Below, one piece after another: positions 2,520 to 55,485 of a stretch of 60,108 nt of DNA (position 1 is the first letter of the stretch; every line of letters begins with the position of its first letter). The notes below the pieces were generated by a model. That model was not told the origin of the DNA, did not search any database, and saw nothing but the letters and a program-made list of their open reading frames with translations. The stretch is from a virus. The stretch spans positions 1 to 60,108 of IMG/VR virus record IMGVR_UViG_3300008262_000065; one strand, written 5' to 3'. The translations under genes and the position numbers were made by a program.

Positions 2520-3997
2520 TGATGGACTACAAAGGGCTGAATGTCATTGACAGAAAGCCCGGCTATTCCAACCTTGAGATGTTAAACCATTGCAATACCT
2601 TGTATGAAATTGTCACCAAGACAAAGGACATCAAGGTATTGGATGGTAGAGCATACGTAATCAAACAAGTTCTTAAACATAAGACAGACAAAGAAACAAT
2701 GGATAGACTCAGCAATAGCATTGAGTACTACCAAAAACTACACGAAACAGAAATGAATAATCAAATCGAATTAAGAGACTATCAAAAAAGTATTGTCTCA
2801 AAGGCAGCAGAAATCATCAATGAGCACGGGTTCGTGTATCTTGCGATGGAAGTTAGAACGGGGAAGACTCTAACAAGCCTAAGCATCTGCGATAATATTC
2901 CAAACGTAGAGAATGTATTGTTCCTGACCAAGAAGAAAGCAATTGATTCTATCACTGCTGATTCAGATAAACTGTGCCCATCATACGTACTGTTCGTCAT
3001 GAACTATGAGAGCATACACAAGCTACCTAAAGTAAAGTGGGATGTAATCATATGTGATGAGGCACACGGCATGGGTGCATTCCCAAAGCCAAGTCTAAGG
3101 TCCATGCAGGTGAGAGATTTAGTTAGGGATAACAATAGCAGAGTGATACTGCTATCGGGTACCCCAACTCCTGAGTCATACTCTCAAATGTACCATCAGG
3201 TATATGGCATTCCGAACAACCCATTCAAAAAGTACTCAAACTTCTATCGGTTCGCTGATGACTACGTAAAGAAAACTCAGAAGAAAATCAATGGCGTATT
3301 GATTAATGACTACTCGAATGGTTTGCCTACCATAATGGATGCTATGGTGCACTGCACAATTAGATGGTCCCAAGTAGACTCAGGGTTCGTAGTCCAAACT
3401 TCAGAGGAAGTATTGCGTGTGGATTTGGAAGAATCAACTTATAAGTTAATTTCTAAACTCAAAAAAGATTTGGTGGTTGAGGGTAAGAGTGAGACTATCT
3501 TGGGTGATACTCCCGTGAAACTCATGAGCAAACTGCACCAATTGTATAGTGGTACCATAAAGTTTGAGAGTGGGAAATCAATGGTGATAGACTTGAGCAA
3601 AGCCAAGTTCATCAAGGAACGATTCAAGTATCAGAAGATTGGCATCTTCTACAAGTTCAAAGAAGAACTCACTGCACTTCAGGAAGTCTTTGGTAATAAG
3701 CTAACAACTGAACTCAGTGTCTTTGAAGACACCGACAAACACATAGCGTTACAGATTGTATCCGGAAGAGAAGGCATCTCGCTGAAGAAGGCTGACTGCC
3801 TCGTGTACTATAACATTGACTTCAGTGCCACAAGCTATTGGCAGAGCAGGGATAGAATGACTACCAAGGATAGACTTGAGAATAAAATCTATTGGATATT
3901 CTCTAATGGTGGTATTGAGGACATGGTATACAAAGCCGTGTCCAAGAAAAAAGACTATACCCTATCTCATTTCAAAAGAGATTTGCTAATATTGTAA
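2519..3997 (+). CDS. Superfamily 2 helicase (SNF2/DEAD-like)
   Basis: This is an ATP-dependent DNA or RNA translocase of 492 residues. Motif I is EVRTGKT near residue 110, motif II is DEAH near 179, motif III is LSGTPTP near 211, and motif VI is QSRDRMTTKDR near 441. The second RecA-like domain is recognisable by the IVSGREGISLKKAD segment. It probably works with the upstream primase-helicase in replication or recombination. A copy of the dispersed 16-bp inverted repeat lies inside the gene at 3717-3732 and is read as SVFEDT. The start overlaps the upstream stop; a second ATG follows immediately. Confidence 0.85.
   Translation: MMDYKGLNVIDRKPGYSNLEMLNHCNTLYEIVTKTKDIKVLDGRAYVIKQVLKHKTDKETMDRLSNSIEYYQKLHETEMNNQIELRDYQKSIVSKAAEIINEHGFVYLAMEVRTGKTLTSLSICDNIPNVENVLFLTKKKAIDSITADSDKLCPSYVLFVMNYESIHKLPKVKWDVIICDEAHGMGAFPKPSLRSMQVRDLVRDNNSRVILLSGTPTPESYSQMYHQVYGIPNNPFKKYSNFYRFADDYVKKTQKKINGVLINDYSNGLPTIMDAMVHCTIRWSQVDSGFVVQTSEEVLRVDLEESTYKLISKLKKDLVVEGKSETILGDTPVKLMSKLHQLYSGTIKFESGKSMVIDLSKAKFIKERFKYQKIGIFYKFKEELTALQEVFGNKLTTELSVFEDTDKHIALQIVSGREGISLKKADCLVYYNIDFSATSYWQSRDRMTTKDRLENKIYWIFSNGGIEDMVYKAVSKKKDYTLSHFKRDLLIL
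3717..3732. repeat. Dispersed 16-bp inverted repeat, copy in helicase gene
   Basis: GTGTCTT-TG-AAGACAC lies within the SF2 helicase coding sequence and is read as VFEDT. Its codon frame differs from that of copies inside the giant gene and TerL. Confidence 0.9.
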
Positions 3998-44781: not shown

Positions 44782-45243
44782 ATGGCTTCTAAAAGAAACA
44801 CCCCATCATTCGACTATCTCAAGTATTGGAGAGTTATCAGGTACTATGTAAAGGCTAAATACGGTCTGACACAGGGGGACCTTGACATCTTACTGTTCTT
44901 ATACTCCGAACAATACTTCGGCAAAGACAAGTTTGATGAGTTTAATACCCTATTGTCTTGGGATAAGAACCGATTCAACAAACTTCTACGTGATGATTGG
45001 ATTTCATGCTTCAGAAAGTACAACCAAAAGACCAAAGAGAAGTCACTATACCAAGTATCCTACAAGGGTAAGCGTGTAATTGGGGCTATTTATAAAAAAC
45101 TGAACGGGGAAGAAATCCCCGTCAGCCAATCAAATAACTCTATGTTCGCAAAGAATGTATCTTACACTGATGCAAGATACAGAGAGTTCATTAAAGAGAT
45201 GAATGCCTACTTGAAACAACAACGACATCCCTCTCCTGAATGA
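44782..45243 (+). CDS. Winged-helix (MarR-like) regulator candidate
   Basis: About 153 residues, from ATG 44782 (MASKRNTPSFDYL), chosen because it follows the promoter at 44750-44757; the upstream start lies inside that promoter. The fold suggested is a winged helix: YGLTQGDLDILLFLY, a recognition-helix-like SWDKNRFNKLLRDDW, and a wing with YQVSYKGKRVIGAIY. It is the only plus-strand gene inside the minus-strand late region and its 3' end overlaps GroES tail to tail by 53 bases. A regulator of the early/late switch is a reasonable inference. Confidence 0.55.
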   Translation: MASKRNTPSFDYLKYWRVIRYYVKAKYGLTQGDLDILLFLYSEQYFGKDKFDEFNTLLSWDKNRFNKLLRDDWISCFRKYNQKTKEKSLYQVSYKGKRVIGAIYKKLNGEEIPVSQSNNSMFAKNVSYTDARYREFIKEMNAYLKQQRHPSPE

Positions 45244-45466
45244 TTGTGTACGGAGTATCTCCGATAACCATCGTATACGAGTGTGACTTGTCGTAGTATA
45301 TCTCATCTCCTGCGCTAATCACCGTCACATCAGTACCCGGTGTCACCACAGTAGCCTTCTTATACCTGAATCCACGGGCATCCTCTGCTGATAGCAGAAG
45401 CCCCGACTCTGTTTTTATCTCTTCGTCAATGTCATTGACGATTATGTTTTTACCTATCGCTATCAT
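45191..45466 (-). CDS. groES: Co-chaperonin GroES (Cpn10)
   Basis: A 91-residue protein from ATG 45466 (MIAIGKNIIVNDI), the start that gives the usual GroES length. A mobile loop (KTESGLLLSAEDARG) is followed by KKATVVTPGTDVTVISAGDEIYYDK and the typical end DTPYTIIQERDVVVV. It forms the lid of the GroEL chamber. It is cotranscribed with phage GroEL two genes upstream, overlapping the zinc-ribbon gene by 17 bases. Phage-encoded GroES suggests capsid or other virion proteins that the host lid does not handle well. Confidence 0.85.
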   Translation of the reverse strand: MIAIGKNIIVNDIDEEIKTESGLLLSAEDARGFRYKKATVVTPGTDVTVISAGDEIYYDKSHSYTMVIGDTPYTIIQERDVVVVSSRHSSL

Positions 45467-45674
45467 TGTCTGCAGTTGTTGGTAGTTGGTCCTCGTCCTC
45501 GTAGTACTGACAGTCAAGACAGTAATGCTCGTCACCTTTTTTGATGAAACCTGCGTCTACTGCTATGTCCTCAGCAAAACTTTTATCTGAGAATAAACTA
45601 AACCCCGCAATCTCAGATGCATCAGCATTGCACTTGTCACACACTACAGTGAATTTATGGACCCTCTTTATCAT
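45450..45674 (-). CDS. Small zinc-ribbon-like protein
   Basis: A 74-residue protein with CDKC near residue 12 and CLDC near residue 52, enough for one zinc-binding site. The C-terminus is acidic (EDEDQLPTTADNDSD). It lies between groEL and groES, overlapping both, so it may be made together with them. No specific function known. Confidence 0.6.
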   Translation of the reverse strand: MIKRVHKFTVVCDKCNADASEIAGFSLFSDKSFAEDIAVDAGFIKKGDEHYCLDCQYYEDEDQLPTTADNDSDR

Positions 45675-47290
45675 TTTGTATCGTATGCTCTCGCCATCGT
45701 GATGATAGCGTTGGTTGATAGAATTGTTGTTGCCACACTGATGGCGTTCTGCAGTGCTGAACGTGTTACCTTCACGGGGTCAATTACTCCCATCTCAATT
45801 AGGTTCCCTCTCTCTCCCGTTACCACGTTGTAGCCATACCCTTCTTTTGGAATGTCACTCTCGCTATACACATCCTCCAACTTCAGACCTGCGTTTACCA
45901 ATATCTGAATCAACGGAATCTGCAATGAGGCGTGAAGTATTCTCTTCGCCTGCTCACGTTCCTTCGTGTCACCCTCTTCAGGCACAATGCTCAAAGCTTC
46001 TTCGAACAATGCCTTACCTGCACCCGGTAGTATGCCTTCCTCAAGAGCAGACCTTACGGCACACACCGCATCATCTACTCGGTCATATAACTCCTTCTGC
46101 TCAATGTCAGTATTGCCACCAACATGAATCACACCTACACCACCCGTCAATGAGGCAATGCGTGAAAGGATAAAGTCTTTGTCGTGCTTCTTGGTAGCGG
46201 TCTTGTGTGCGTCCCACAACTGAGCAACTCTGTTGTCCAACTCCTCATGGTCCGTTCTGAACTCAGAGTTTATAATCACAGTGCTCTTCGAGTCAACGAT
46301 AATCTTCGCAGCATGACCAAGGTCAGCATACGTTATCATGCTCAAGTCATCACCCGTCTTCTCAGAGAAGTACTTGGCACCAACCGACAATGCAATGTCC
46401 TGCATCAACTCATGCTTCTTGTAACCAAACTGTGGTGGCTCAATCGCACATAGCTTCAAATTGTTCTTCACCACATTCGCTGCCAACGTATTCACCACGT
46501 TCACTGAGCATGGCGCAATAAGCAACAACTTCTTACCCTCTGCAATGATTGGCTTCAACACCGGCTCAATCTGCAGCAAGTTGTGTATCTCAGCGTCACT
46601 GACCAACACCATCACATCCTCATACACACACTCGTCCTTCTTGTGGTCATTGATGAACAACGGTGAGTAGTACCCACGCTGAACCTTGAACCCATGTGTG
46701 CTCTCAGCATATGTCTCAGTGGTCTGCGACTTCTCTACCGTCACAATACCATTCTCCCCAATCTCATTGTACACCTTGGCAATAATCTCACCAATAGACT
46801 TATCGTTATTTGCCGATATAGTAGCTACATCCAACAATGTCTTCTCCGTCAGTTTGACATGGCGTTTGCTCAACTTCTCCAAGATGTTATTGCCTATGTC
46901 CACTATCTCTCGCAACACAATCGTTCTGTTCGTCTCAGAGTCCATCAATTGGTCCCCCGATTTCACAATCGCCTCAGTCAACACAATGGCAGTTGTCGTG
47001 CCATCACCCGCTGAGTTCGCAGTCTTGTCCGCTGCCTCTTTAACCATTCTTACCGCAAGGTTCTCTACCGGGTCCATCAGGTCAATAGCTTTAGCTACCG
47101 TTACCCCGTCCTTGGTCACAGTGATACCGCCCGTGTGTGAAGGTGACTCTATCAACACAGTGTTACCCCTCGGTCCCAATGTGCTCTTTACCGCACCCGC
47201 AATCTTTGAAATACCATTTACTAATTTCTTACGACCTTCCTCGCTGAAGTGCAAGTCCTTTGGTGAATAACCAATTGTACCATCCATCAT
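45671..47290 (-). CDS. groEL: Chaperonin GroEL (Cpn60)
   Basis: A 539-residue group I chaperonin. ATP-binding motifs GPRGNTVLIE near residue 40 and GDGTTTAIVL near 95 are intact, and the apical and second equatorial parts are recognisable (IASLTGGVGVIHVGG, EEGILPGAG). The C-terminus ends MARAYDTK without the Gly-Gly-Met repeat of bacterial GroEL. With its own GroES it would fold phage proteins in late infection. It heads the chaperonin operon with a promoter box at 47313-47320. GroEL genes are rare in phages of this size. Confidence 0.92.
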   Translation of the reverse strand: MMDGTIGYSPKDLHFSEEGRKKLVNGISKIAGAVKSTLGPRGNTVLIESPSHTGGITVTKDGVTVAKAIDLMDPVENLAVRMVKEAADKTANSAGDGTTTAIVLTEAIVKSGDQLMDSETNRTIVLREIVDIGNNILEKLSKRHVKLTEKTLLDVATISANNDKSIGEIIAKVYNEIGENGIVTVEKSQTTETYAESTHGFKVQRGYYSPLFINDHKKDECVYEDVMVLVSDAEIHNLLQIEPVLKPIIAEGKKLLLIAPCSVNVVNTLAANVVKNNLKLCAIEPPQFGYKKHELMQDIALSVGAKYFSEKTGDDLSMITYADLGHAAKIIVDSKSTVIINSEFRTDHEELDNRVAQLWDAHKTATKKHDKDFILSRIASLTGGVGVIHVGGNTDIEQKELYDRVDDAVCAVRSALEEGILPGAGKALFEEALSIVPEEGDTKEREQAKRILHASLQIPLIQILVNAGLKLEDVYSESDIPKEGYGYNVVTGERGNLIEMGVIDPVKVTRSALQNAISVATTILSTNAIITMARAYDTK

Positions 47291-48446: not shown

Positions 48447-49109
48447 ATGAGTAATTTAATGCAAATCGAGCAGGCACTTCTAAGCCTACCACAAGTAAAA
48501 CAAGGTCTTTGCCTTACTGAAATCCGCAGCGCACTACGTGCTGAGACCAATGCACAGAAGCAGAAGTTCACCAAGACAATTGCGCTATCTGTATTGGTAT
48601 CCAAAGCCTATGCTTGGTTCCAATCTGAGGAAGGCAAGGCTATCTTCCGTGAAGAGGGGGTGACATGGACCGCAGAGGATTTCGCAAACAAAGTTTTTGG
48701 GTGGCAAAAAAGCTACTTCAGCAAGGTGAACAAAGCAGGCAAACTACCTGCAGAAACAATTGCCTTGTTCAACGCAAAGTGCGATGAGGCTGAGGCTGCA
48801 GGCGATAAGCCAAACAGAACTCTTGAGGGACTGCACAAGTGGGTGAAGGCAAGTGCCCAAGGTGAAACCGAAGGCAGCGGAAAAGGTGAGGGCGAAGGCG
48901 ATGGACAAGAGGAAGGCGAAGACACAACTGCAGCAGTGGAAGTGCAAGTGCCCACTATTTTGCCCTTTGCTTTCAAGGCAGCGGACCTTGGATTGGGCAA
49001 AAATGTGAGCATCAGAGTGCAACAAGACGGCACTTTGGTGAGCAGCAATACTGCCTATGAAATCAATATGGCGCTTGAGTTCTTGAAGGCAGCCATTGAG
49101 GCGAGGTAA
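48447..49109 (+). CDS. Hypothetical early protein with acidic linker
   Basis: A 220-residue protein, first of the early operon. The N-terminal two-thirds are helical (KAYAWFQSEEGKAIFREEGVTW, FANKVFGWQKSYFSKV). Residues about 137-155 form a Gly/Glu-rich linker, and the C-terminal part is a beta/alpha unit (NVSIRVQQDGTLVSSN). First position in the early operon suggests host takeover or regulation, but I recognise no family. Its stop is followed by the first repeat-plus-hammerhead module. Confidence 0.6.
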   Translation: MSNLMQIEQALLSLPQVKQGLCLTEIRSALRAETNAQKQKFTKTIALSVLVSKAYAWFQSEEGKAIFREEGVTWTAEDFANKVFGWQKSYFSKVNKAGKLPAETIALFNAKCDEAEAAGDKPNRTLEGLHKWVKASAQGETEGSGKGEGEGDGQEEGEDTTAAVEVQVPTILPFAFKAADLGLGKNVSIRVQQDGTLVSSNTAYEINMALEFLKAAIEAR

Positions 49110-49121
49110 GCACTATGGGGG

Positions 49122-49137
49122 GTGTCTTTAAAGACAC
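49122..49137. repeat. Dispersed inverted repeat before hammerhead 1
   Basis: GTGTCTT-TA-AAGACAC, here a perfect palindrome, 5 bases upstream of hammerhead 1. In RNA it would leave a hairpin about 10 bases from the new 3' end after cleavage. Confidence 0.9.
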
Positions 49138-49142
49138 CTCTC

Positions 49143-49191
49143 GCGTCCAAGGGTGAGTGCCCTTGCTGATGAGTCCAAGAGGACGAAACGC
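49143..49191 (+). ncRNA. Type III hammerhead ribozyme 1
   Basis: All conserved parts are present. Stem III is GCGT (49143-49146) with ACGC (49188-49191). The cleavage triplet is GTC with cutting after C49147. Stem I is CAAGGG (49148-49153) with CCCTTG (49160-49165) and a six-base loop TGAGTG. The core CTGATGA is 49166-49172. Stem II is GTCC (49173-49176) with GGAC (49181-49184), loop AAGA. The second core strand is GAA (49185-49187), followed by A49188 pairing with T49146. It lies in the leader of the amidoligase-like gene, and translation of that frame back to 49153 would run through the ribozyme, so the gene start is ATG 49222. Confidence 0.93.
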
Positions 49192-49221
49192 AAACAAAAA
49201 ACCAACAAAAACACCACAGAT

Positions 49222-50196
49222 ATGACAACATTCCAAGAATTAAAAGAAGGTCGCAAGTACGAAATTACGGGTGACTATGACCGCAGCGTAGTTCAAAGCT
49301 ACCACAGAAAGCCAAGTGCCCTCAAGCACAATGTCAGCAAGTTTGCTGCCGATGTAATGGGACTCAAAGCCATTGACCGCAGCAAGGCAATTTTGAGAGT
49401 GCAGGACGAGTTTATGAGCAAGTTTACCATTGGGTATGAGATTGAGAAAAACGCTTTCCATAGGGGTGCGGTACAAGAATACCCACTGCTGCAGGGGTTT
49501 GAACGTGACGGGTCATGTGGCTATGAGGCAGTGACAAACATCTTACCCCTACTGCCCGAAGGCAAGTGGCGCAACAAGGTGTACGAGATGTTTACGCAGG
49601 CTGAGAAAATTATTGACTCTCGCTATAGCCCTGCGGACCGCAGGTGCGGTGGTCATATCACCTTGACCTGCAAGGACCTATCAAGTGATGAGATGAGGGT
49701 AAAATTGAGAGCATATGCAGGCATCCTGCTTGCCTTGTACGAGAGTCGTATCTCGAATAGGTACTGCGGTCACAACTTGCGTATGCAGCCCGACAATGAG
49801 AATTGGTACAATGGACCGAATTGCTACGAGGGCAATGGCACAAGGTATCAGTTTGCACTTGAGAAGACCTTTGGCTATGGTCGTGAGGCACAAGGTGCGG
49901 TTGAGTTCCGTATCGTGAGCAAATTTGAGTCAGTGAAGCAGTGCTTTCGCAGGTATGAATTGTGCTACGAACTCATGGACACTGCGTTCAATAGCCCGAC
50001 AAGTTTTCCTTCCTTTCTGAAGCGAATCCGTCCGATAGTTCTTTCAATGTACGGCAACGATGCTGCAGCCTGCGACCTGCGTCTTGAGAAGGCAAAGCAC
50101 TATCAGCACTTCATCAACACGGGTAAGATACACGAGAGCATTGTATCGGTCCTTGACCCGCACAGAAACCATGGATGGCGACATATGCCCTTCTGA
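49222..50196 (+). CDS. Amidoligase-like enzyme
   Basis: About 324 residues from ATG 49222 (MTTFQELKEGRKYE), downstream of hammerhead 1. It fits the amidoligase (carboxylate-amine ligase, COOH-NH2 ligase) family of the glutamine-synthetase fold: TIGYEIEKN near residue 70 (the vGxExE start), DGSCGYEAVTNILPL near 96, CGGHITLT near 142, and GAVEFRIV near 226. Such enzymes join a carboxylate to an amine using ATP. The early genes also include a class II amidotransferase/GGCT fusion, a known partner type. Alternatives are few given these motifs, but no search was possible. Confidence 0.65.
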   Translation: MTTFQELKEGRKYEITGDYDRSVVQSYHRKPSALKHNVSKFAADVMGLKAIDRSKAILRVQDEFMSKFTIGYEIEKNAFHRGAVQEYPLLQGFERDGSCGYEAVTNILPLLPEGKWRNKVYEMFTQAEKIIDSRYSPADRRCGGHITLTCKDLSSDEMRVKLRAYAGILLALYESRISNRYCGHNLRMQPDNENWYNGPNCYEGNGTRYQFALEKTFGYGREAQGAVEFRIVSKFESVKQCFRRYELCYELMDTAFNSPTSFPSFLKRIRPIVLSMYGNDAAACDLRLEKAKHYQHFINTGKIHESIVSVLDPHRNHGWRHMPF

Positions 50197-50213
50197 CGGG
50201 GGGCATGGGGGTG

Positions 50214-50229
50214 GTGTCTTTGAAGACAC
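50214..50229. repeat. Dispersed inverted repeat before hammerhead 2
   Basis: GTGTCTT-TG-AAGACAC, 7 bases before hammerhead 2 and 17 bases after the amidoligase stop. Confidence 0.9.
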
Positions 50230-50236
50230 TGCTCCC

Positions 50237-50287
50237 GTTGTCGGGGAATGCGAGTTCCTCCTGATGAGTTCAAAAGAACGAAACAAC
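50237..50287 (+). ncRNA. Type III hammerhead ribozyme 2
   Basis: Stem III: GTTGT (50237-50241) with ACAAC (50283-50287). Triplet GTC, cutting after C50242. Stem I: GGGGAA (50243-50248) with TTCCTC (50255-50260), one G-U pair, loop TGCGAG. Core CTGATGA 50261-50267. Stem II: GTTC (50268-50271) with GAAC (50276-50279), loop AAAA. Core GAA 50280-50282. It lies in the leader of the 91-residue gene at 50315. Stems I, II and III differ from hammerhead 1 but all pair. Confidence 0.93.
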
Positions 50288-50314
50288 AAAACAACACACT
50301 AAAAAAAACAACAT

Positions 50315-50590
50315 ATGGTACACAAAATTCACGATGACATGAGTCACTACAGAGTAAGCTTCGATGGTATCCACGGCAAGCCAAAGGCTATGCAGTTGGA
50401 GAACTATCTCAACAGAAACAAGTTCGAACTTGATTGGGAGAACTTCAAGGAGGTATGCAATGGGCACAAGGAGGTGACCATTTGGAGAAACCCACGTACT
50501 GAAGATAGCATCGAAAGGTACGGCAAGAACCTTGTCTACACTGAGTTCCACGAGGAACGGAATGTGAGGTGGTTATTGACTAACTACTGA
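50315..50590 (+). CDS. Small hypothetical early protein
   Basis: A 91-residue protein (MVHKIHDDMSHYRVSFDGIHG), mixed alpha/beta, with many His, Asn and aromatic residues. It lies between hammerheads 2 and 3, so self-cleavage would release it as a 388-nt mRNA. No family recognised. Confidence 0.6.
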   Translation: MVHKIHDDMSHYRVSFDGIHGKPKAMQLENYLNRNKFELDWENFKEVCNGHKEVTIWRNPRTEDSIERYGKNLVYTEFHEERNVRWLLTNY

Positions 50591-50603
50591 GCACCAAGGG
50601 TAG

Positions 50604-50619
50604 GTGTCTTCAAAGACAC
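50604..50619. repeat. Dispersed inverted repeat before hammerhead 3
   Basis: GTGTCTT-CA-AAGACAC, 5 bases before hammerhead 3. Confidence 0.9.
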
Positions 50620-50624
50620 TGCCC

Positions 50625-50675
50625 GTTGTAAGTGGATGTGAGTCCACTCTGACGAGTCCAAAAGGACGAAACAAC
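50625..50675 (+). ncRNA. Type III hammerhead ribozyme 3
   Basis: Stem III: GTTGT (50625-50629) with ACAAC (50671-50675). The cleavage triplet is GTA, cutting after A50630, allowed by the UH rule. Stem I: AGTGGA (50631-50636) with TCCACT (50643-50648), loop TGTGAG. Core CTGACGA 50649-50655, with C at the variable position. Stem II: GTCC (50656-50659) with GGAC (50664-50667), loop AAAA. Core GAA 50668-50670. It lies in the leader of the gene at 50695. Confidence 0.92.
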
Positions 50676-50694
50676 AAACTAAAAAACAACATAT

Positions 50695-50976
50695 ATGACA
50701 CAACGTATTTCAAAACAAGTTAAAGCCATTGCTGATGCGCACATAGCTGCGAAAGCAAACGGCACATTCGACAACCCGCACGTGAGCACACGTGAGCAAG
50801 TAATTCAGGCACTGTTTGAGGGCAAGACCTTTGACGAGGTACTGCGTCAGGTAGAGACAAGGTTCTGCAGCATTACTACACTGCTACTGCAGGGCACATT
50901 TGACTACACGACTCAAGCCTACAAGAGAGATGTTTACAGAGGCTTCAAGACACTATTACAAGGGGGTGCAAGATGA
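50695..50976 (+). CDS. Small hypothetical early protein
   Basis: A 93-residue, mostly helical protein (RISKQVKAIADAHIAAKANGTF, STREQVIQALFEGKTFDEVLRQV), basic overall. It overlaps the next gene by four bases (ATGA), so the two are translated together from the 714-nt fragment between hammerheads 3 and 4. Confidence 0.6.
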   Translation: MTQRISKQVKAIADAHIAAKANGTFDNPHVSTREQVIQALFEGKTFDEVLRQVETRFCSITTLLLQGTFDYTTQAYKRDVYRGFKTLLQGGAR

Positions 50977-51284
50977 AGTATAGGGTAAACATAAATGGTG
51001 CTGATGACGGGTTTGATGTAATCACTGAGGACGGGGATGTGGTATCCCTGCATCATAACGGGGACAATTGGGTGAGCACGTACTACGGGACGAGACTTTA
51101 TTCATGCGATGCAAACAACTACGTATGGGATGAACTGAGTCAGGGTTCAGTATACCTAAAAGATTGGGACCATGAGCCAACGGTGAGTGAGGCTATCAAT
51201 GATGCACTTACATGGATGGTGTTCCCTGCCCCTGCAGAGGGGTGGCAGCAGGACGATTCCATATGGGGTCAGTTCTTTGACTAA
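50973..51284 (+). CDS. Small acidic hypothetical early protein
   Basis: A 103-residue, acidic protein rich in Asp and Trp (GADDGFDVITEDGDVVSLHHNGDNWVS, and LKDWDHEPTVSEAINDALTW). The acidity would suit a protein that mimics DNA to inhibit a host DNA-binding protein, but that is a guess. Coupled to the upstream gene by an ATGA overlap. Confidence 0.6.
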   Translation: MKYRVNINGADDGFDVITEDGDVVSLHHNGDNWVSTYYGTRLYSCDANNYVWDELSQGSVYLKDWDHEPTVSEAINDALTWMVFPAPAEGWQQDDSIWGQFFD

Positions 51285-51317
51285 AAGATAAGGTCCGATG
51301 TGGTGTTGGACGGGGTG

Positions 51318-51333
51318 GTGTCTTCAAAGACAC
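51318..51333. repeat. Dispersed inverted repeat before hammerhead 4
   Basis: GTGTCTT-CA-AAGACAC, 6 bases before hammerhead 4. Confidence 0.9.
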
Positions 51334-51339
51334 TGCCCC

Positions 51340-51388
51340 ACGTACAAGAGTGAGTGCTCTTGCTGATGATTCCAAAAGGATGAAACGT
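51340..51388 (+). ncRNA. Type III hammerhead ribozyme 4 (weakened stem II)
   Basis: Stem III: ACGT (51340-51343) with ACGT (51385-51388). Triplet GTA, cutting after A51344. Stem I: CAAGAG (51345-51350) with CTCTTG (51357-51362), loop TGAGTG identical to hammerhead 1. Core CTGATGA 51363-51369. Stem II: TTCC (51370-51373) with GGAT (51378-51381) has a T-T mismatch at the base next to the core, leaving three pairs. Core GAA 51382-51384. Compared with hammerhead 1, one stem I pair has changed from G-C to A-T on both sides. Activity may be reduced by stem II. Confidence 0.88.
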
Positions 51389-51409
51389 AAAACCAAAAAC
51401 AAAACAGAT

Positions 51410-51640
51410 ATGACAGAGCAAAACAACAATGAGAAGAGCACCATACATTGGGTTGTATGTGTTCCTGATTTTGATGAGACAATTAAAATCAAGATGTTCA
51501 ACGCCTATGAAAGCGCACAAGTTTACATTGATGGGGTGAGGGCTGAGTATGACGCTATCATTTACACGAACAAGGAGCACGTAATCATAAACCTATGCCT
51601 TCAGTATGGCATATTACCTACACAATACCTAACATTCTAA
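51410..51640 (+). CDS. Small hypothetical early protein
   Basis: The frame is open upstream through hammerhead 4, but ATG 51410 (MTEQNNNEKSTIHW) lies just after it and is the likely start, giving 76 residues. Beta/alpha with HWVVCVPDFDETIKIKMFN. Followed closely by the next gene. Confidence 0.55.
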   Translation: MTEQNNNEKSTIHWVVCVPDFDETIKIKMFNAYESAQVYIDGVRAEYDAIIYTNKEHVIINLCLQYGILPTQYLTF

Positions 51641-51643
51641 GAC

Positions 51644-51985
51644 ATGAATACAGAAGTAAGTTTCAAGATAGCAGAGATGCTAAAATCAAAAGGGTTTAAT
51701 GAAGAGGGGATTGCAGGTGTATATCATAATTCTGATAAGACACGGGTATACCCAAAAGAATACATAAAAGAAGGAGATTATACTTCAGCCCCTACCATAG
51801 CGCAAGCTATCATGTGGATGTATGAGAAGCATGGTGTGTGGGTTTATTCGTACCACAATGGGACATTATTTATTGGGTCTATACAAGACTCAACAGGTTC
51901 TATAAAAGGTAGATTGTTAGGATATAAAACCCCAACAGAAGCAGTAGAAGCAGCTATTGAGTATGCATTAACCAACTTGGTATGA
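51644..51985 (+). CDS. Conserved-type small phage protein
   Basis: A 113-residue protein with SAPTIAQAIMWMYEKHGVWVYSYH and a C-terminal YKTPTEAVEAAIEYALTNL. This layout recurs among early proteins of Bacteroidota phages and other phages, as far as I recall, with no function known. It overlaps the next gene by four bases. Confidence 0.6.
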   Translation: MNTEVSFKIAEMLKSKGFNEEGIAGVYHNSDKTRVYPKEYIKEGDYTSAPTIAQAIMWMYEKHGVWVYSYHNGTLFIGSIQDSTGSIKGRLLGYKTPTEAVEAAIEYALTNLV

Positions 51986-52176
51986 TAGAGCATACAAACA
52001 TACACTTGATACGCATAGAGAAGCCCATTGCCCGTCTGCCATTGGATATGTACGAGCAGTGGGCAACACTGAGTGAGGACAAGCGACTATACTACATCAG
52101 AAAGGGGAGTTCGGGAGTGGGTCAGGTATCAGTGAAACACGCATCAGTATTGGCTATAAAAATAATTTTAAAATAA
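51982..52176 (+). CDS. Small hypothetical early protein
   Basis: A 64-residue protein (MIEHTNIHLIRIEKPIARLPLDMYEQW), ATGA-coupled to the previous gene and last before an internal promoter. No family recognised. Confidence 0.5.
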   Translation: MIEHTNIHLIRIEKPIARLPLDMYEQWATLSEDKRLYYIRKGSSGVGQVSVKHASVLAIKIILK

Positions 52177-54006: not shown

Positions 54007-55128
54007 ATGTGCATCATAATCGTAAAACAACGCAACATTGAGATACCATCAGAGTATCTAAAAAATTCATCACGCATCAACCCCCACGGGTTGGGTGTGG
54101 TATGGCTTGACACCTTTGAGATAAGCTATCACAAGTCAAGCGAGTGGTCAGTACTAAACACTGCCCGTCCGTACATTGCCCACTTCAGATACGCAACGGT
54201 AGGCAAGGTAGGTCCCGACAATACGCACCCATTCAGATGTGGTGCAAACAAGCATGAGTACCTGATGATGAACGGTACCATTCATGGTCTTGGCAACAAG
54301 GATGTATGCGATACAAAAGTATTGGCTGAGTCATTGGATTCTGTGCCACGCCACAAGTGGAAGGCTGAGTTGGAGAAGAACAGACTTGTTCGATTCGTAA
54401 CAATCAACACAAGGCTGCGTACCTTTCAGCTATACAACAGAGACTTATGGACATTCCGCAACGGGGTGTGGTATTCCAAGGACAACATCTTTCAGGACCA
54501 TGTGGTGGCAGTGTACGGCACACTGAAGAAGGGGCACGGCAACTACCACAGATACCTGACTGACTCAAAGTTTGTAGGGTCAGGCACAACCAAGGACAAG
54601 TACCCGCTTATCATACACGGCTTGCCTTATATGCTTGACAAGAAGGGCAAGGGGCACAACGTGAAGGTGGATGTATTCAAAGTGAATGACACGGTCCTTG
54701 GTAAGTTGGACCAACTTGAGGGTCACCCGAATTGGTATTGCCGAAAGCAAATCACCATCACGATGAAGAAGAAAGAGGTGACTTGTTGGTTGTACTTTGC
54801 CAAGGATTCAATGGCAGACGAGGGAGATGAGATGCACGAGTCATACGAGGTAGGCTACATACACCACCCATTTAAAAAGGAGACTACCATGAGAGACTTG
54901 TTCCTGCCTGCTGAGAAGCCCACGTATAAGCAGGTAAAGTTTGAGTCATTCGATGACCTATACTCAAACCTATCAGGCATTGAGACAGAGGATGATGAGC
55001 CTATCATTGACGAGATACCATACTGCACTTCATGCTACAAGGACCTTGCGAGTGACGGCTACGGGAACTACTGCTGCATAGGATGCAACGAGTGGTACAC
55101 GCAGGCAGAGGTAGACAACTTGTTATAG
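54007..55128 (+). CDS. Class II glutamine amidotransferase fused to gamma-glutamylcyclotransferase and a zinc ribbon
   Basis: A 373-residue fusion. The N-terminal domain starts MCIIIVKQ, where removal of Met would expose the nucleophile Cys2 of class II amidotransferases; INPHGLGVVW, HFRYATVG and MNGTIHG are the other family motifs. From about residue 167, VAVYGTLKKGHGNYHRYL and the Glu in QLEGHPNW (about 237) mark a gamma-glutamylcyclotransferase-like domain. The C-terminus has CTSC near 340 and CCIGC near 356, a zinc ribbon. With the amidoligase-like gene it probably makes or trims gamma-glutamyl-type conjugates on a metabolite or protein. The exact chemistry is unknown. Confidence 0.8.
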   Translation: MCIIIVKQRNIEIPSEYLKNSSRINPHGLGVVWLDTFEISYHKSSEWSVLNTARPYIAHFRYATVGKVGPDNTHPFRCGANKHEYLMMNGTIHGLGNKDVCDTKVLAESLDSVPRHKWKAELEKNRLVRFVTINTRLRTFQLYNRDLWTFRNGVWYSKDNIFQDHVVAVYGTLKKGHGNYHRYLTDSKFVGSGTTKDKYPLIIHGLPYMLDKKGKGHNVKVDVFKVNDTVLGKLDQLEGHPNWYCRKQITITMKKKEVTCWLYFAKDSMADEGDEMHESYEVGYIHHPFKKETTMRDLFLPAEKPTYKQVKFESFDDLYSNLSGIETEDDEPIIDEIPYCTSCYKDLASDGYGNYCCIGCNEWYTQAEVDNLL

Positions 55129-55143
55129 TGTCTTTGAAGACAC
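55128..55143. repeat. Dispersed inverted repeat before the tRNA-like element
   Basis: GTGTCTT-TG-AAGACAC, beginning at the last base of the amidotransferase stop codon and ending one base before the tRNA-like element. Confidence 0.9.
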
Positions 55144-55144
55144 A

Positions 55145-55188
55145 AGGTGAATGGTTTCAGGGGGGTTCGATTCCCCCCGCACCTGCCA
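55145..55188 (+). ncRNA. tRNA-like T-arm/acceptor minihelix
   Basis: GGGGG (55161-55165), the seven-base loop TTCGATT (55166-55172) and CCCCC (55173-55177) form a perfect tRNA T-arm. It is followed by a 7-base acceptor strand CGCACCT (55178-55184), a discriminator G and CCA (55186-55188). A 5' acceptor-like strand AGGTG (55145-55149) pairs with CACCT. No D-arm or anticodon arm is present. GGTTT (55153-55157) could also pair with AAACC (55188-55192) as a pseudoknot. It could be an RNase P target, a tRNA 3'-end mimic, or a phage attachment-site remnant. Confidence 0.6.
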
Positions 55189-55212: not shown

Positions 55213-55485
55213 ATGAAAATCAAATTCAATCACACAGAGGAAACAACAACAGATGCATTCGGTATTAAAAACATTGACGCATTCGCAGAGAACCTATCAA
55301 AATCATTAGCTGATTTTGCATTGGACAAAGACAAGAACATGGTCAGCCACTTGGGCGAGTTGATTCAAGAGAACTTAACAGATGAGGAGATTCTATTCCT
55401 TGCAACGCAACGAGCAATGAACTACGTAGAACGTAGCAGACCATTGGTAGATGCATTCATTGATTACCTAAAGGAAAGGAACTAA
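55213..55485 (+). CDS. Small hypothetical early protein
   Basis: ATG 55213 (MKIKFNHTEETTTDAFG) gives 90 residues; an upstream start would translate through the tRNA-like element. Helical after the first 20 residues, with ENLTDEEILFLATQRAMNYVE. Function unknown. Confidence 0.6.
   Translation: MKIKFNHTEETTTDAFGIKNIDAFAENLSKSLADFALDKDKNMVSHLGELIQENLTDEEILFLATQRAMNYVERSRPLVDAFIDYLKERN

Follow-up and report, generated by a model that had tools for sequence, protein, structure and literature searches.

The IMG/VR virus record IMGVR_UViG_3300008262_000065, considered here over its whole length of 60,108 bases (the window), contains a co-directional operon on the + strand that begins with gene A at position 48447. 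Four of its gene gaps are occupied by elements that are, by sequence, structure and covariation, type III hammerhead ribozymes, each with a predicted site of self-cleavage. Gene A (220 residues, 48447–49109), conserved in 59 loci, is located 5' of copy 1 of the hammerhead (49142–49192, cut predicted after 49147). Gene B (324 residues, 49222–50196), a conserved anchor found in 74 loci, separates copy 1 from copy 2 (50237–50287, cut after 50242), whereas gene C (91 residues, 50315–50590), for which a search for relatives among the loci found none, lies between copies 2 and 3 (50625–50675, cut after 50630). The overlapping genes D (93 residues) and E (103 residues), together spanning 50695–51284, are placed between copies 3 and 4 (51339–51389, cut after 51344), and genes F, G, and H (51410–52176) follow copy 4 on its 3' side. 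All of these features are on the + strand. Relatives of gene D in two other loci (L009 and L030) likewise have a hammerhead 69–70 nucleotides (nt) upstream. The original prediction, made from the letters of the window, had placed four hammerheads between the genes of a single operon, as is found here, and the cut positions obtained here are the same as those that it gave.

All four copies include the complete core (C3 U4 G5 A6 N7 G8 A9, G12 A13 A14 A15.1, and U16.1 H17), which reads CTGATGA in copies 1, 2, and 4 and CTGACGA in copy 3, accompanied by GAAA in each, as first described. Stems I and II are closed by loops and stem III is open-ended, which is the layout of type III. The arms of stem I are different in every copy, yet they form six pairs each time (CAAGGG/CCCTTG, GGGGAA/TTCCTC with one G-U pair, AGTGGA/TCCACT, and CAAGAG/CTCTTG in copies 1–4), and copies 1 and 4 differ there by a single compensated change of G-C to A-U. 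The arms of stem III (GCG, GUUG, GUUG, and ACG in the same order) represent three distinct sequences, all of them paired and extended by A15.1–U16.1. Loop I consists of six bases starting with TG (TGAGTG, TGCGAG, TGTGAG, and TGAGTG), and loop II is AAGA in copy 1 and AAAA in the remaining three, a pattern that suggests a conserved contact between the two loops. The features named in the original prediction, the suggested loop–loop contact among them, all agree with the sequence, and only its statement that stems I–III can pair in each copy needs to be qualified. It holds for stems I and III. In stem II a standard pair at position 10.1–11.1 is present in copies 1–3 (G-C in copies 1 and 3), while the corresponding residues of copy 4 (TTCC/GGAT) form a U-U mismatch that leaves three standard pairs. 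The copies also vary at residue 17, which is C in copies 1 and 2 and A in copies 3 and 4. The minimum free energy (MFE) fold is identical to the hammerhead fold for copies 1 and 3, and three of the four modules of the window fold without constraint as a hairpin followed by a hammerhead.

The Rfam models yield no match in the window at their gathering scores. With permissive settings the hammerhead model RF00008, which had been proposed as a check, recognizes copies 1–3 (42.9, 41.1, and 41.2 bits) below its gathering score of 48.5, a curation cut-off that corresponds to no structural feature; copy 4 is not listed. A covariance model (R1) built from 80 diverse phage hammerheads, with the sequence of the window excluded, finds exactly four matches in the window, scoring 69.3, 62.9, 66.3, and 67.6 bits for copies 1–4 (E-values of 4.1e-19, 4.3e-17, 3.6e-18, and 1.4e-18), against 11.4 bits and an E-value of 0.6 for the next best place. 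A structural finder likewise gives four matches on the + strand and none on the − strand. The same finder yields 246 matches in 3.2 megabases of phage loci, both strands included, and none in the reversed sequence, by which chance hammerheads are ruled out. Covariation extends through all stems of the 80 rows of R1, with 96% of the cells paired and a score of 0.785 compared to 0.216 in shuffled alignments, although these rows were preselected for pairing. For that reason the fairer figure comes from matches chosen by the palindrome, CTGANGA, and GAAA, with no rule on pairing, of which 115 out of 118 can be parsed as complete hammerheads.

In the window, PHROG families are matched by the terminase, the portal, and the major structural protein. 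Its nearest named relatives are MW202828 (terminase 77% identical), the Flavobacterium phages 'elemo', and Cellulophaga phages, and on this basis it is a phage of the Bacteroidota type. The named relative closest by terminase, MW202828, has no hammerhead, and the Cellulophaga phages phi18:3 and phi19:3 contain a short match to the core with no complete hammerhead detected by the finder. In the whole records of relatives, 37 out of 38 have between one and five hammerheads each.

A hairpin, which the original prediction does not mention, is located directly 5' of stem III in each of the four gaps, also on the + strand (49117–49142, 50207–50236, 50598–50624, and 51312–51339 for copies 1–4). The first consists of the palindrome GTGTCTTTAAAGACAC with G/C arms, and all of them are built on the palindrome GTGTCTTNNAAGACAC just 5' of stem III. 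When up to three mismatches are allowed, the window contains 17 copies of this 16-bp palindrome, compared to fewer than one expected. Among the other positions of the palindrome in the window are 28795, 43732, 53967, 57706, and 59423, and 34 related records have 2–16 copies each; in the loci, 287 copies are divided into 107 before hammerheads, 96 in other gaps, and 84 within open reading frames (ORFs). The 35 nt that precede stem III in 197 distinct hammerheads of phages fold at −14.7 kcal/mol when the palindrome is present and at −13.5 kcal/mol when it is absent, compared to −5.9 and −7.1 kcal/mol in shuffled sequences. In 163 of these 197 the hairpin directly abuts stem III, and in most other co-directional gene gaps no hairpin of this kind is seen (mean of −5.7 versus −16.6 kcal/mol). 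The outer arms of the hairpin are variable, their pairing on the strand of the hammerhead involves many G-U pairs, and the center of the palindrome is CA in 84 cases, TA in 19, CG in 4, and TG in 1. In view of this strand-specific G-U pairing and of the distribution of the centers, the hairpin seems to act as RNA of the hammerhead strand. It may also, in addition or instead, stack coaxially on stem III, which is short, and favor its formation.

The order of stop codon, hairpin, ribozyme, leader, and ATG is found repeatedly, in dozens of related phages, with median distances for 193 hammerheads of 8 nt from the stop codon to the hairpin (quartiles 7–11), 39 nt from the stop codon to the cut, and 67 nt from the cut to the ATG. 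In the window, the distances from the stop codon to the predicted cut are 38, 46, 40, and 60 nt, and those from the cut to the ATG are 75, 73, 65, and 66 nt (copies 1–4). In the 160 nt preceding each of 192 hammerheads, no promoter motif of the Bacteroidota type (TTTG-N18-22-TAnnTTTG) is present, with one or two expected by chance, which gives slight support to the view that the hammerheads are likely internal to transcripts. The hairpins are followed by CTGTC or CCGTC and have no U-tract, so that they are excluded as intrinsic terminators. A role as the promoter of a phage RNA polymerase was rejected as the principal explanation, with the hairpin situated at a median of 8 nt past the stop codon and with unrelated hairpin sequences at that place in other phages. 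The stable hairpin close behind each stop codon might still indicate a transcription stop or attenuator, in which the cut would destroy or release the downstream part and thereby lower the expression of the downstream genes. However, the hairpin has no U-tract on its 3' side, several modules in series would silence the operon, and the leader downstream of the cut keeps its spacing to the ATG, so we regard attenuation as unlikely.

The position behind gene B makes it possible to compare equivalent gaps in different phages. The first set of loci was gathered by RNA patterns, and gene B is present in 73 of them at a stricter limit. In these, all 149 hammerheads are on the strand of gene B and none on the opposite one, with many directly behind gene B and some directly before it; copy 2 of the window occupies this conserved slot. 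For a second sample, viral contigs were searched with the alignment of the gene B protein alone and the 80 best loci were kept. A hammerhead is situated right behind gene B in 66 of these 80, of which 63 were recognized by the finder and three (L314, L358, and L362) by R1; in L314 the core residue A9 is changed. On the gene B tree the content of the slot requires 10 changes, a tRNA-like element described below requires two, and at least five changes in the presence of the hammerhead are forced by well-supported branches.

This turnover of the slot contents, together with the 17 copies of the palindrome, which also occur within genes, could be expected if palindrome–hammerhead cassettes were selfish repeats that spread with no benefit to the phage. 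Such repeats would hardly account for 149 out of 149 hammerheads lying on the coding strand, in gene gaps and with tight spacing, nor for stems that differ among copies while pairing is kept, nor for a slot that is retained in most of the clade, and we give this explanation a very low probability. Two further kinds of sequence were observed in the slot, neither of which corresponds to an Rfam family. In L323 (~3480–3530) and L353 (~3465–3510) the slot shares the motif CAGAAACG in a hairpin, followed by GGATTTGGTGGTAGAAAC, which may represent a third kind of processing element. In L328 and L337 (~3550–3580) it contains GGTACGACCACGTTATTCGTACC with possible loop pairing, a motif for which a pistol-like identity is no more than a guess.

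The other recognized occupant of the slot is a minimal tRNA-like element, present there in L294, L330, L331, and L332; with the looser structures of L315 and L343, discussed below, four to six of the 80 loci have a tRNA-like element in place of the hammerhead. This mini-tRNA consists of an acceptor stem of 5–8 bp, a linker of ~11 nt (TGGT...AG) in place of the D and anticodon arms, both of which it lacks, a T arm (TTCGANT), and the closing acceptor strand. One such element, with an acceptor stem, an 11-nt linker, and a T arm, is also found in the window, where the original prediction does not mention it (55145–55184, + strand; 41.3 bits and an E-value of 2e-9 with a model of the element, R2), behind the stop codon of the ORF at 54007–55128 and a palindrome hairpin at 55128–55143, and before the ATG at 55213. 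A search of the window with ARAGORN yields no tRNA, and no Rfam family corresponds to the element. Scanning for ATGGTNNNAGNNNGGTTCGANTCC yielded 106 stretches; 75 of the 85 distinct matches have a paired acceptor at the distance of the mini-tRNA and none solely at the distance of a full tRNA. The reversed-sequence control gave zero, and the phage loci contain 95–107 distinct elements, depending on the filters. The mini-tRNA may represent a new class of signal for RNA processing in phages. From its acceptor and T-arm shape it would be a substrate of RNase P, which we infer to cut it, and perhaps of RNase Z as well.

Around gene B, L330 and L331 contain four mini-tRNAs apiece, some of them immediately before and behind the gene, and two clear ones are present in L332; no hammerhead is present in the whole records of L330, L331, L332, and L336, and the 63 hammerhead loci contain only three mini-tRNAs in total. 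Since the slot is shared by hammerheads and mini-tRNAs, and in light of the changes on the tree, the cut at this position seems to be kept while the cutter is exchanged. We lean slightly toward a more general formulation, in which the early operons of this clade have conserved RNA-cutting slots, filled by a hairpin with a hammerhead or by a hairpin with an RNase P-cut mini-tRNA with the TGGT linker, each able to replace the other, and in which the mini-tRNA is a new and widespread class of phage RNA.

The same exchange bears on the possibility that neighboring cuts free gene-sized RNAs whose 5'-OH and cyclic-phosphate ends are joined by a ligase into circular or ligated products. Judging from the positions of the cut sites, successive cuts would leave such ends on the RNAs of gene B, gene C, and genes D–E. 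The mini-tRNA substitutes, if cut by RNase P, would give a 5'-phosphate unsuited to this ligation chemistry, and Perreault et al., who looked for products of this kind in other arrays, detected none (PMC3088659); such joining is accordingly highly improbable. Odd, long tRNA-like elements ending with CCTGACTACA were also seen in several loci (L046 at 6779, L050 at 7455, L142 at 9769, L035 at 5139, and L068, L076, L078, L007, L008, and L015), followed by the conserved CTTAGCCTCAGAGGT...AGACTGAGG, for which a pseudoknot is possible. Rfam matches these long elements to tRNA only, and it detects no ribozyme of the hepatitis delta virus type behind those of L046, L050, L078, L142, and L035.

In the hammerheads of the palindrome scan, A17 accompanies U10.1–U11.1 in 25 of 26 cases and G-C in 18 of 85 (Fisher p of 2.7e-12, a value inflated by related sequences). 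The U-U mismatch seen in copy 4 is present in 34 of 194 parsed elements, and A-A at the same position occurs only with U17 or C17 (hammerheads of L005–L081). Pa223 (L176), from the PaP3 group, also combines A17 with U-U. This coupling points to changes that compensate each other close to the active site. The mismatch U10.1–U11.1 is reported as natural and tolerated, with no description of its coupling to A17 in the part of that paper available (PMC3088659). These variants at 10.1–11.1 and H17 could tune the rate of cleavage, and slower variants of phage hammerheads have been proposed to be regulated (PMC3088659), so a ligand or protein might switch cleavage and control the downstream genes. 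Loop I (TGNGTG) and loop II (NAAA) are both conserved and too short to accommodate an aptamer, and mini-tRNAs occupy the same slot in relatives; regulation of this kind is very unlikely.

We consider it likely that the hammerheads are cis-acting punctuation marks, at which the transcript of the operon is cut into individual mRNAs whose ends are structured. Transcription from gene A would read through the gene gaps, in four of which the RNA would form the hairpin shortly past the stop codon and the hammerhead immediately after it. The hammerhead is expected to cut itself, in the cell as well, at the junction of stems III and I. The upstream mRNA would then end with the hairpin, a tail of ~5–7 nt, and a 2',3'-cyclic phosphate, while the downstream mRNA would start with a 5'-OH at stem I and keep the remaining ribozyme as a structured 5' end, with the ATG 65–75 nt further on. 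The separated mRNAs would presumably live longer and have independent levels. The hairpin on the new 3' end and stem I on the new 5' end suggest that both products of the cut are protected, an idea that we put forward tentatively. As hammerheads would leave a 5'-OH and RNase P is expected to leave a 5'-phosphate, these mixed 5' ends argue that the shared purpose is separation itself rather than any special end.

Several observations weigh against punctuation as formulated here. A competing fold of copy 2, at −38.0 kcal/mol, is slightly more stable than the native one, which at −34.9 kcal/mol is 3.1 kcal/mol above the MFE, and copy 4 carries the U-U mismatch; the hammerheads could be slow or regulated. 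Some relatives of gene B have no recognized cutter in the slot (L285 and L289), and the slot elements of L315 and L343 are larger or looser tRNA-like structures. Furthermore, many contigs were collected by hammerhead patterns, a bias avoided only by the sample based on the gene B protein, which includes near-copies.

The product of gene B has the invariant residues GxExE, DxSxGxE, CGGH, EFR, and RRYE and no match in Pfam. Its AlphaFold2 model (predicted local distance difference test, pLDDT, of 87) is matched by Foldseek to glutamine synthetase-like folds with a probability of 0.99 and a low TM-score of 0.3, and on this weak match it is likely, though not certainly, a carboxylate–amine ligase with a fold like that of glutamine synthetase or an amidoligase. 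For the functions of the operon genes, searches with Pfam, PHROGs, NCBIfam, and PADLOC, which covered a part of the combinations of gene and library, gave no useful match. The operon adjoins a phage-encoded GroEL (45671–47290, − strand), next to which a protein that is GroES-like by its position is encoded (45191–45466, − strand).

Transcripts are known to be processed at tRNAs by RNases P and Z, an arrangement termed tRNA punctuation, and the mini-tRNA elements would act likewise. They differ from such tRNAs by the lack of the anticodon and D arms and by their location in intergenic slots that are otherwise held by a ribozyme. An orthologous slot that is filled by a hammerhead in most relatives, and in others by an unrelated cutter that probably depends on an enzyme, amounts to a natural swap experiment, which implies selection on the cut at that place rather than on the ribozyme itself. 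The slot also offers fixed sites, as well as a pair of interchangeable parts with which bacterial operons could be split.

Among hammerheads, members of RF00008 of type III share with the copies in the window the core, an arrangement of three stems in which stem III is open, loops I and II of the interacting kind, and an NUH cut site. The copies differ from them in scoring below the gathering score, in a stem III of 3–4 bp with an abutting hairpin, and in the common A17 and U10.1–U11.1 variants. In the PaP3 group (Bruynoghevirus), Pa223 shows the same A17 and U-U type with a stable structure upstream, although in the stretch examined its hammerhead precedes the first annotated gene near the end of the genome and the phage is unrelated; PaP3 itself is listed as an active core variant (PMC3088659).

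The closest counterparts are the clusters of prophages, in which hammerheads flank single genes; a triple array was tested, and cleavage by clustered phage hammerheads was seen in vitro and in Escherichia coli (Perreault et al. 2011, PMC3088659). The window contains a cluster of the same kind, with several hammerheads in the gaps of a co-directional phage operon. The rarity attributed to an array of four in the original prediction stands in part, as such clusters are known (PMC3088659) and arrays of one to five are normal in this clade. The role of bacterial and phage hammerheads is described as an open question (review PMC6155905), and the prophage clusters have been proposed to split long transcripts into gene-length mRNAs (PMC3088659; PMC6155905). 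In these clusters, too, several hammerheads flank single small genes of phage operons whose functions are unknown, and U10.1–U11.1 is noted as natural (PMC3088659, PMC6155905). The hosts differ, and the module with the hairpin, a constant slot following an orthologous gene, and the tRNA-like replacement, all present in the phages described here, are absent from the available portions of those accounts.

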